Assembly: GCF_000517445.1 (NCBI RefSeq)
Contig: NZ_CP006965.1
Span: forward strand, 1,650,681-1,714,680
From: Thermococcus paralvinellae
GTDB lineage: Archaea; Methanobacteriota_B; Thermococci; Thermococcales; Thermococcaceae
DNA length: 64,000 nucleotides
Direction: 5' to 3'
In this document: one piece after another, positions 30,489 to 33,787 of the stretch
How positions within the stretch are numbered: the first letter of the stretch is position 1
Layout of the letters: every line of letters begins with the position of its first letter
Position numbers and translations under genes: made by a program
Notes under the pieces: model-generated
The model's input: the letters and a program-made list of their open reading frames with translations, nothing else
Told to the model about the DNA's origin: nothing
The model's database searches: none

Positions 30489-30545
30489 TTCTGTCACCCA
30501 AAGGTCTTTAAGTTTTGAACTACTTAAGGGTTTTTGGTGAAAAAC

Positions 30546-32210
30546 ATGAGAAAGCTTTTCGTGTTGCTTTTAATAGGACTAATTATCTTCTCAGCAGGAT
30601 GTACCCAGAAAGGAACAACTTCAACAGAGACTACTCAAATTGCAACCCAAGAAAAGTCAAGTGAGACACAAATAACAACTTCCACACCAACACAGACTCA
30701 AGCTCAAGGAATTAACTTCAAAGAGTACAAGCGTGGTGAGATAATCGGAAATTGGTGGAAGCTTTTTGATACAAGTGTAGTTTATGTCAGCAAGGGATAT
30801 GAAGACTTAGCAAAGCACTACTTTCCAAATGCTCAAATAAAACCTGCAAGTGAGTTTGATAAAGGAATTGCAATTTTAAGCCCAAAAGATGCAAGAGAGC
30901 TTTTGAGAGGAAAGCCAATGCTGATTACAATCAACGACTATTTCGGCTATGTCCTTTACAAAGTTGGATACAAGTTCGTTGGACAGGATATGGGGATGAT
31001 TGTGGCATACAAAGAAGACAACAAAGACAGGCTAATCTTTACAGGTAATGGAAAAGCCGGAACTGGAGCAGCATTGAAATATGCACTCGAAATTAAAGAT
31101 GGAAAAAGAGAGCCAAAGGCAACATATATTCTGAGAAGGGGAGATTTTGAGGGCGTTGTGCTGAAAGAAATAGGCGACAACAACTGGAATGGAATTCCGG
31201 AAAGTGGAGAATACTGGATAATCAACGAAATTTACTTTAAGGAGCCATTTATTTACAACTGGCGCATTGTTAATGGGAAAAATGTAACGGTTAGTGGAGG
31301 ATTCATCAGATACGTTAACGGCTCAAGAGTTTACATCTACGCTTTGAGCTTTAATGTGAGTGTTGAAGTTAAAAACGGAAATGGAGCAGAGATAACTTAC
31401 GTTATCGAAAACATAAACCCAAGTATTATGGAGATTCCAGAGAATGCAGAAACTGGGAATACTTGGATTAAGTTCACTACAAATGAGGAACACTTTGTAA
31501 TTCAAGCAAAGAATCTCGAAAACTTCACCTTCTTTGCTTTTGGTGACCACAGGCCTGGAAGTGGAAAGAAAGTCCCAGAGATGTTCTTGAAGGTTAGAGA
31601 TGCCATGAACAATGACAGTGGGATATTCATAATTGACGGCGGAGACTTAATTTATTCCGGAAAAGTTGAGGAGTGGGGAGAGCTGTTTAAAGCTTGGAAG
31701 TTCAATAAACCCGTTTTCATAGCAGTAGGCAACCACGAGTACCAGGGAGAAGGAGTTAACATATACCACAAATACTTTGGACCAACAGATTATTCCTTTA
31801 TCCTTGGAAACTACTACTTCATTTTCATGAACAATGTTCAAAATGGATACTCCCTGAGTGCTTCTCAGTGGAAATGGCTCGAAAATGAGCTTGAAAAAGC
31901 AAAGAAACTTAACAAGAAGCCAATAATTGTTATGCATACACCTCCAGTTGACCCAAGACCCGGAGGAGACCATTCAATGAAGCCAAGTGAGGGGGAGAAG
32001 TTACTTAATCTTATGAAAGAATACAACGCCTTTGGAATATTCAGCCACATTCACATCTACTGGTACGGAGAAAAGAACGGGGTCTACTTTGTAGTAACCG
32101 GTGGGGGTGGAGCTCCGCCATATGCTAAGCCTGACGAGGGAGGATTCTACCATTATGTCAAGATTTCTGTGGATGGGGGAATCCAGGTTGAACCTATAAA
32201 GGTCAGCTGA
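30546..32210 (+). CDS. Secreted metallophosphoesterase lipoprotein
   Basis: A 554-residue exported protein. The signal peptide ends in lipobox FSAGC (Cys19), followed by a Thr/Ser/Gln-rich linker of about 40 residues likely to be glycosylated. An N-terminal domain of unknown fold (60-300) precedes a calcineurin-like phosphoesterase domain with FGDHRPGS, DGGDLIYSG, VGNHEYQG, MHTPPVD and FSHIHIYW, which supply the two-metal site. It probably cleaves phosphomonoesters or diesters outside the cell. GGTGA lies 5 bases before ATG 30546. The genes just downstream (acidic microprotein, Pit permease, PhoU-like) suggest a phosphate-acquisition role. Confidence 0.88.
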   Translation: MRKLFVLLLIGLIIFSAGCTQKGTTSTETTQIATQEKSSETQITTSTPTQTQAQGINFKEYKRGEIIGNWWKLFDTSVVYVSKGYEDLAKHYFPNAQIKPASEFDKGIAILSPKDARELLRGKPMLITINDYFGYVLYKVGYKFVGQDMGMIVAYKEDNKDRLIFTGNGKAGTGAALKYALEIKDGKREPKATYILRRGDFEGVVLKEIGDNNWNGIPESGEYWIINEIYFKEPFIYNWRIVNGKNVTVSGGFIRYVNGSRVYIYALSFNVSVEVKNGNGAEITYVIENINPSIMEIPENAETGNTWIKFTTNEEHFVIQAKNLENFTFFAFGDHRPGSGKKVPEMFLKVRDAMNNDSGIFIIDGGDLIYSGKVEEWGELFKAWKFNKPVFIAVGNHEYQGEGVNIYHKYFGPTDYSFILGNYYFIFMNNVQNGYSLSASQWKWLENELEKAKKLNKKPIIVMHTPPVDPRPGGDHSMKPSEGEKLLNLMKEYNAFGIFSHIHIYWYGEKNGVYFVVTGGGGAPPYAKPDEGGFYHYVKISVDGGIQVEPIKVS

Positions 32211-32227: not shown

Positions 32228-32283
32228 TTAACGAAAAGTTCTTAAAGTCATAATGCAGAAAAACAATAGGAGGAGGTGGGAAT

Positions 32284-32448
32284 ATGCAACCTCCAAAGAA
32301 AAAGAAAGTTGAAGAGATAGAGGAAGAAGAGTTCTTCGAGGAAGAGGAATTTGAAGATTGGGAAGAGGACTGGGAAGAAGAGTGGGAAGAGGAAGAATGG
32401 GAGGAGGATTGGGAAGAGGAGGAAGAGTGGGAAGAAGAGGAATGGTGA
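32284..32448 (+). CDS. 54-residue Glu/Trp repeat microprotein
   Basis: A short gene with a very strong ribosome site (GGAGGAGGTGG, about 5 bases before ATG). The product starts MQPPKKKKVEEIEEEEFF and continues with almost only Glu, Asp and Trp. Tryptophans fall at 26, 30, 34, 39, 43, 49 and 54, every four to six residues, so that a helix would carry a Trp stripe on a highly negative surface. About 35 acidic residues in 54 make it one of the most acidic proteins possible. T-rich sequence follows the TGA. I know no characterised family. Its place between a phosphoesterase and the Pit permease may hint at cation or polybasic-partner binding; that is speculation. Confidence 0.75.
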   Translation: MQPPKKKKVEEIEEEEFFEEEEFEDWEEDWEEEWEEEEWEEDWEEEEEWEEEEW

Positions 32449-32468
32449 GCTTTTTATTTTTGCACCTT
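32449..32468 (+). terminator. T-rich terminator after the microprotein gene
   Basis: GCTTTTTATTTTTGCACC directly follows the TGA. The T-runs suggest that the microprotein message ends here, before the Pit promoter. Confidence 0.4.
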
Positions 32469-32470
32469 TT

Positions 32471-32487
32471 CTATATAGTCTATATAG
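32471..32487. promoter_or_regulatory. Repeated CTATATAG palindromes upstream of the Pit gene
   Basis: CTATATAG occurs at 32471-32478 and 32480-32487, followed by the related GCTATATTC near 32501-32509. They lie upstream of the TATA-like CTATTTATATG (32522-32532) of the phosphate permease gene. The repetition suggests a regulator site, but simple AT-rich sequence is possible. Confidence 0.35.
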
Positions 32488-32563
32488 ATGAGTGTATTTA
32501 GCTATATTCTATTTCGACAACCTATTTATATGCTCCAACTGACGGTTTCTTGGGTGGGGATAA

Positions 32564-33787
32564 GTGCTCGAGACCCTTACAGATCCATGGCTTTTTATCA
32601 CGATCGCTGTTGGTCTTTTCATGGCCTGGGCAATAGGCGCAAATGATGCTGCAAATTCCATGAGCACTGCTGTTGGAGCTGGAGCAATAACCCCAAAGCA
32701 GGCGGTCATAATTGCTGGGATTTTAGAGTTCACTGGAGCTTATTTCTTTGGAAAGAGCGTTACAGAAACTATAAGAAAAGGTATAATCGACCTCTCCCAA
32801 ATAACAGAGCCAACCGTTCTAATCTACGGTTCGATAGCAGCTTTGCTTGCAGCTGCTTTGTGGCTTCTCATAGCAACAAAATTCGGGTTGCCAGTATCAA
32901 CAACACACTCTATCATTGGTGGAATAGTTGGATATGGGATTGTATATGCAGGTCTGGGGATAGTCAATTGGGGCAAGATGGCTCAAGTGGTTGCCAGCTG
33001 GATTCTCTCGCCAGTTTTTGGAGCAATAATGGCATTTGTAGTCTTTAAAGCGATCTCAAAGACAATCCTCCAAAGCTCTACTCCAGTAAAAAGTGCCAAA
33101 ACCCACTCTCCAATCTGGATTGGGTTAGCGTTCGTTGTGATTGGGGCAATGTTCTACATAAAAGTTATGCATGGGAAATCCTTGCTGACAGCAATCGTAA
33201 AGTTTGGAATTCCAGCAGGATTTGTAGCATTTATCATAAGTTTTGTGGTTTTAAGACGGAATTTCAAATCTGATGATCCATATATTGGAGTTGAGATGAT
33301 ATTTAAGAAAGTCCAAGTTCTAACATCAGCTTATGTTGCTCTATCCCACGGAGCCAATGACGTTGCCAACGCAATCGGCCCAGTGGCAGCTGTTTATGCT
33401 GTCGCCACAATGGGGCTAGCTGGAATGAAAGTCCCAGTGCCGAGATGGATTCTGGCAATGGGTGGTTTAGGAATTGCGGTTGGTGTTGCTACATACGGTT
33501 ACAGAGTCATGGAAACTGTAGGGAAGAAAATTACAGAGCTGACAAATACAAGAGGATTCAGCATTGACTTCTCAGCAGCAACTGTCGTTTTAATTGCATC
33601 ATGGCTTGGACTTCCAATTTCAACCACACACACAGTAGTTGGAGCAGTCATTGGTGTAGGGTTAGCAAGGGGAGTAAAAGCAATAAACAAGGACATTGTT
33701 AAAGATATAATAATTTCATGGTTTGTAACTGTGCCAATAGCCGCTATTGTCAGCGGGATAATATTTAAGATTTTGATGGTGATGTAA
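32564..33787 (+). CDS. pit: Inorganic phosphate transporter (Pit family)
   Basis: A 407-residue permease with about 10-11 membrane segments. The two inverted PHO4 repeats are clear: GANDAANSMSTAVGAGAI (near residue 27) and SHGANDVANAIGPVAAV (near 263), with the matching STTHSIIGG and STTHTVVGA motifs. It imports phosphate with Na+ or H+. The start is a GTG with GGTGGGG 4 bases before it. The next gene, a DUF47 PhoU-like protein, follows after 1 base and is a common partner of Pit carriers. Confidence 0.93.
   Translation: MLETLTDPWLFITIAVGLFMAWAIGANDAANSMSTAVGAGAITPKQAVIIAGILEFTGAYFFGKSVTETIRKGIIDLSQITEPTVLIYGSIAALLAAALWLLIATKFGLPVSTTHSIIGGIVGYGIVYAGLGIVNWGKMAQVVASWILSPVFGAIMAFVVFKAISKTILQSSTPVKSAKTHSPIWIGLAFVVIGAMFYIKVMHGKSLLTAIVKFGIPAGFVAFIISFVVLRRNFKSDDPYIGVEMIFKKVQVLTSAYVALSHGANDVANAIGPVAAVYAVATMGLAGMKVPVPRWILAMGGLGIAVGVATYGYRVMETVGKKITELTNTRGFSIDFSAATVVLIASWLGLPISTTHTVVGAVIGVGLARGVKAINKDIVKDIIISWFVTVPIAAIVSGIIFKILMVM

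Follow-up and report, generated by a model that had tools for sequence, protein, structure and literature searches.

The micro-ORF and its signals in the Thermococcus paralvinellae window

The window, a 64,000-nt stretch of the T. paralvinellae genome, carries a forward-strand micro-ORF (32284..32448) that runs from ATG to TGA without an internal stop and encodes 54 aa: an MQPPKKKK start followed by an acidic-aromatic tail with a terminal Trp. A protein of this length does not fall under every gene caller's limit. Among the 388 window ORFs of at least 35 aa, it alone reaches 40% or more Asp plus Glu. The initial annotation put its composition at about 35 Glu/Asp and seven Trp; the count is 31 Glu and 3 Asp, i.e. 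34 acidic residues (63%), and indeed seven Trp, at positions 26, 30, 34, 39, 43, 49 and 54 (the last residue). On the same strand lie a calcineurin-like metallophosphoesterase gene upstream (30534..32210, Pfam PF00149, E 2.1e-9) and a PHO4-family phosphate permease gene downstream (32564..33787, Pfam PF01384, E 1.3e-115).

The micro-ORF has expression signals of its own, all read on the + strand. A conserved ACGAAAAGTTCTTAAAG block (32231..32247), unchanged in all five aligned sequences from the same genus, is probably its archaeal BRE/TATA promoter. The translation signal had been described as excellent, and the AGGAGGAGGTGGGAATATG upstream is a good Shine-Dalgarno sequence; the Shine-Dalgarno-like AGGAGGAGGTGG is at 32268..32279. 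Across the family, loose patterns, used without a shuffled control, picked out a Shine-Dalgarno-like string no more than 20 nt from the start in 66 of the 68 distinct members; TATA-like strings were picked out in 64 of the 68. The T-rich run reported 3' of the stop is present (32450..32472, directly after the stop), is kept in five aligned sequences of the genus and may be an archaeal U-tract terminator; a scan for bacterial-style terminators found none, as expected of a U-tract without a hairpin. Further downstream, a conserved CGACAA-CTATTTATAT block in the own-genus alignment (32515..32531) is probably a separate promoter of the PHO4 gene, so that the micro-ORF is unlikely to control PHO4 by read-through.

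Between micro-ORF and PHO4 we also observed CTATATAGTCTATATAG (32471-32487), two 8-bp self-palindromes with one base between them. Allowing up to 2 mismatches, the window has no second site of this kind (chance 0.01). The five aligned sequences of the genus keep it, with one change in L006; it is possibly an operator of the phosphate permease.

Coding selection and distribution in Thermococcaceae

The micro-ORF family is clearly under purifying selection at the protein level. Forty-nine ungapped pairs (equal length, at least 80% identity) gave pS 0.487 and pN 0.047, with 75, 113 and 575 of their 763 differences at codon positions 1, 2 and 3, and 17 disjoint pairs (equal length, at least 75% identity) gave pS 0.369 and pN 0.036. 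The pS/pN ratio of about 10, which the identity filter on pairs inflates, compares with 2.0 (sd 1.2) for simulated unconstrained change. Close relatives tell the same story: the window and L003 encode identical proteins with 5 nucleotide differences, all at position 3, and 17 of the 19 differences from L004 fall there. A purine-rich non-coding repeat, open by chance, would fit the GA-rich composition and the other open frames (sense +1 in 43 of 68 members, antisense in 39-58 of them), but these codon data refute it, and we give it next to no credence.

A protein search followed by profiles found relatives in 89 of 94 Thermococcaceae genomes, one of which (G068) counts through a divergent neighbouring ORF that has a single Trp. 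The five genomes without a relative (G010, G046, G051, G052 and G062) are all 73-86% complete, and none of the 74 genomes with at least 90% completeness and at most 5% contamination lacks a family member. The initial annotation had proposed a protein-coding gene and named a lack of conservation in relatives as what would refute it; codon-level selection supports the gene, near-universal presence in the family contradicts such a lack, and we regard the gene and its family as real with near certainty.

Members are 41-61 aa long, and most begin M-Q-P-P-K-K-K-K and end in Trp. This MQPPKKKK lineage occurs in 77 genomes, a figure that includes the MQP[KR]KK variant of genus g3 (7 of 9 genomes; G012 has its own version) and further copies read at individual loci in G021, G042, G064, G068, G076 and G085. 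A second lineage, M(Y)YPPKKKVxPK..EEFEPL..EEAYED..W (the MYPPKKK type, group B), occurs in 21 genomes; its pattern matched 22, of which G047 was left out of group B as a weak match to an MQPP-type ORF. Both lineages are present in 9 genomes. The MYPPKKK lineage stands alone in 12, and with just one of the two lineages to deal with there, genetics can reach the microprotein. Some copies are irregular: the group-B copy of G029 contains 2 stops; G015 carries the MYPP type, and its MQPP-type copy beside the RuvC-like gene (L165:2680-3020) reads PPRKKKREDEFEEELEEEVWELEDEDW, with no ATG at the usual place; and a pattern match in G051 is a 13-aa ORF that was left out of the counts.

In 21 genomes that belong to the phylum but not to the family, neither the profile (E up to 10) nor the strict start pattern found a match. 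A scan of genome contigs with the single protein found 1 locus among 252 stretches, a result that says little on absence elsewhere, since related genomes later yielded further members. Pfam (queried with all 24 members of A2), NCBIfam, PHROGs and PADLOC hold no family for the microprotein. Nor did a search of mostly open literature, by peptide string and by descriptions of small archaeal proteins that are acidic or rich in Trp, find this family, and the available parts of the T. gammatolerans proteome paper (PMC2718504) contain nothing specific to it. A viral origin was rejected: scanning viral contigs with A2 gave 21 pattern stretches and no relatives, and PHROGs gave none. Presence in all 74 better-quality genomes of this much-studied family of heat-loving archaea, yet outside the four family libraries searched, marks the gene as a likely core component.

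Genomic neighbourhoods

The most common neighbour is a gene that we call RuvC-like from its AIDPGERPGLSV motif, no library naming the protein; it is present in 91 of 94 genomes, and the MQPP type lies 73-446 nt from it in 61 of 77. Its product, of about 254 aa at L139:3112-3921, where it stands beside CDC48, matched nothing in Pfam, NCBIfam or PADLOC. The CDC48 ATPase gene comes after the RuvC-like gene, and MoeA is often on the opposite side, in the regions read, which cover part of the 61 genomes. The 20 context regions were hand-picked to span genera, not drawn at random.

Other positions recur. A second locus, by an MFS transporter gene and a threonine-synthase-like gene, is occupied in g5 and G089 by an MQPP-like copy and in g4 by the MYPPKKK lineage; the two lineages there look like divergent orthologues. 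Of the 22 group-B loci, 16 have an MFS gene downstream, called by eye from its start, and 2 have a fragment of one; the other 4 are ambiguous or at a contig end. The g3 copy is flanked by a DHPS-like gene and a NIP7-like PUA gene. The position beside PHO4 was found only in 5 of 7 genomes of the window's own genus and in G093 (G088 and G091 are fragmentary there). G093 has both a PHO4 copy and a RuvC-like copy, and G000 and G087 have none at the RuvC-like locus, which suggests duplication followed by loss.

Two features of these regions are recorded separately. At L150:4045-5217 a convergent DERLIDV gene enters the micro-ORF antisense and thereby acquires a tail rich in Ser, Gln and His (SSSSQSSSSH); the L141 relative of this gene ends before the micro-ORF. 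At the second locus, a 476-aa protein with an SGGKES motif (L142:6414-7841) adjoins DUF1611 and matched nothing in Pfam or NCBIfam.

These neighbourhoods bear on two proposals. The first, made in the initial annotation, tied the microprotein to the phosphate system around it. That link is a local feature of the window's genus: the micro-ORF stands beside PHO4 only there and in G093, it is absent from the RuvC-like locus in the two own-genus genomes read (L159 and L160), and elsewhere the neighbours are RuvC-like/CDC48/MoeA, MFS, or DHPS-like/NIP7-like genes, so a phosphate role as the general function was discarded. The second is a regulatory leader peptide whose translation would sense Trp-tRNA, Mg2+ or ribosome state and so control the downstream MoeA, MFS, PHO4 or NIP7-like gene. 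With seven Trp codons and runs of Glu, attenuation or nascent-chain effects come to mind; the downstream MFS genes of group B suit the idea, and 13 of the 20 regions have a gene on the same strand no more than about 150 nt downstream. The remaining 7 (L139, L141, L147, L149, L150, L151 and L155) have no such gene, however, and the downstream genes are mutually unrelated; amino acids are conserved over the whole length while third positions are free, which a codon-counting leader does not need; and PHO4 in the window has its own conserved promoter-like block. We therefore consider a leader peptide improbable.

Protein architecture, candidate function and known systems

Members of the family are free-standing proteins that conserve three elements: an N-terminal basic anchor (M-x-P-P-K-K-K), a hydrophobic patch of a few residues (FF/LF/LL or EPL), and a Glu/Asp tail in which a lone Trp or Phe recurs every 4-6 residues. 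Statistics were taken over 62 MQPP-type members, omitting 6 of the 68 distinct sequences (MYPP and MPPKRR types). Sixty of the 62 end in Trp (EW or DW), and net charge ranges from -20 to -35 (mean -27). The near-regular Trp spacing that had been noted in the window protein extends to the family, with 3-5 acidic residues between aromatics far more often than in shuffles: aromatic-[DE]3/4/5-aromatic occurs 115/113/74 times vs 37.9/28.5/21.1 in shuffled tails, and aromatic gaps of 1 and 2 occur less often than in shuffles (1 and 15 times vs 68.8 and 51.2). Trp-to-Trp distance is 5 or 6 in 158 of 293 cases. Such regularity weighs against a reading of the protein as a cation or metal buffer, its Glu/Asp cluster binding Mg2+, Ca2+, Mn2+ or polyamines; the share of acidic residues would suit a buffer, which has no need for conserved regular Trp, a terminal Trp or the PPKKK start, and we think this role very improbable.

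The same spacing had been drawn as a Trp-striped helix. AlphaFold2 does draw the window protein as one helix over residues 5-53 (mean pLDDT 87.6, pTM 0.51; five-model pLDDT range 87.6 to 61.5), which counts against a disordered tail; E-rich repeats are often drawn helical by structure prediction. The stripe itself was rejected, since Trp positions show no excess phase at 100 degrees over the 62 members. Trp spacing that varies among orthologues and the absent helical phase suggest a tail that is flexible and not a rigid helix.

Our preferred reading, held tentatively and at somewhat less than even confidence, is that the microprotein may be flexible and bind basic/hydrophobic protein surfaces as a multivalent acidic-aromatic ligand, with a DSS1/Sem1-like way of working. 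Of the ligand for a basic protein, for metal or for the phosphate system that the initial annotation imagined, the first stays the best guess, and the phosphate system falls away with a neighbour confined to the window's genus and G093. Tail Trp side chains would dock into hydrophobic pockets rimmed by basic residues, while the Lys patch might bind nucleic acid, engage another partner or fold back onto the tail itself. With the RuvC-like gene as most common neighbour, followed by CDC48, unfoldase/ubiquitin-like turnover and DNA/RNA metabolism would be the first areas in which to look for partners, an argument weakened by two genera in which the gene lies elsewhere. Archaeal Cdc48a has been tied to the ubiquitin-like SAMP1 in Haloferax (PMC10470531); the tie makes a CDC48-side partner worth considering and does not demonstrate one. 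A bolder form of the ligand reading, which we rate as a long shot, would make the microprotein a miniature DSS1-like, family-universal hub whose disordered acidic-Trp sites link CDC48/proteasome or RuvC-like/RPA machinery to SAMP-type proteins, with two interchangeable paralogue lineages.

Several known systems invite comparison. The family profile scored weakly (E 0.02-1) against the linker KPRKKKKVEIEEE of a protein of the same organisms that we take to be ScpA/kleisin-like; the likeness is a Lys run and then Glu, but that linker lies within a protein of about 220 aa and has no Trp tail, and after reading five loci we judged these matches to be chance. A search of PDB sequences (hmmsearch with A1) gave 3 matches, best E 0.84, none of them DSS1/Sem1; these too are chance, one being to the PPKKK of a peptide from SV40 large T antigen.

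Acidic-aromatic tails of histone chaperones and acidic activation domains resemble the microprotein in exposing aromatics within an acidic, probably flexible chain; they are parts of larger proteins, however, and the likeness is one of description only. DNA mimics such as Ocr are likewise small and highly acidic. In a nucleic-acid role of this kind, the acidic tail would shield the basic face of archaeal histones, Alba, RPA or RNA polymerase, with the Lys patch in contact with DNA; this is a particular version of the acidic-aromatic ligand reading, with another partner. The strong negative charge with regular aromatics and the conserved RuvC-like neighbour speak for it; no PDB sequence match backs it, and classic mimics are folded, whereas the microprotein is of low complexity with a basic start. 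We consider it rather unlikely, though less so than a leader peptide.

The closest comparison for the preferred ligand reading is DSS1/Sem1/Rpn15, also small and very acidic, with Trp/Phe amid Glu/Asp; its acidic-Trp stretches also bind RPA. In studies of Dss1, the disordered ubiquitin-binding motif (DisUBM) is written X{W}XXX{W}X with acidic X (PMC9381478), the stretches rely on Trp and negative charge at loose positions (PMC9381478, PMC4232310), and they bind a hydrophobic patch flanked by basic regions (PMC4232310). As pattern matches, aromatic-[DE]3-aromatic occurs in 53 of 62 MQPP-type members and an acid-flanked aromatic gap of 2-3 in 56 of 62; the window protein has three such W-acidic(3)-W units (WEEDW, WEEEW and WEEDW). 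Trp-to-Trp distances of 3-4 suit the motif, however, whereas those in the family are mostly 5 or 6. Schizosaccharomyces pombe Dss1 has a transient C-terminal helix (F55-K66) after its acidic-Trp region (PMC4232310), while the microprotein lacks a comparable C-terminal helix and ends inside its acidic tail. It further differs in its PPKKKK start, more numerous Trp (4-8), wider average spacing and terminal Trp. With two defining features failing, DSS1/Sem1 would serve as a working likeness only, and not as a demonstrated homologue. If the likeness is true, archaea would have an acidic-aromatic adaptor class so far described, to our knowledge, in eukaryotes alone, and the identity of its partner would reveal the place of the microprotein in ubiquitin-like turnover or nucleic-acid handling.
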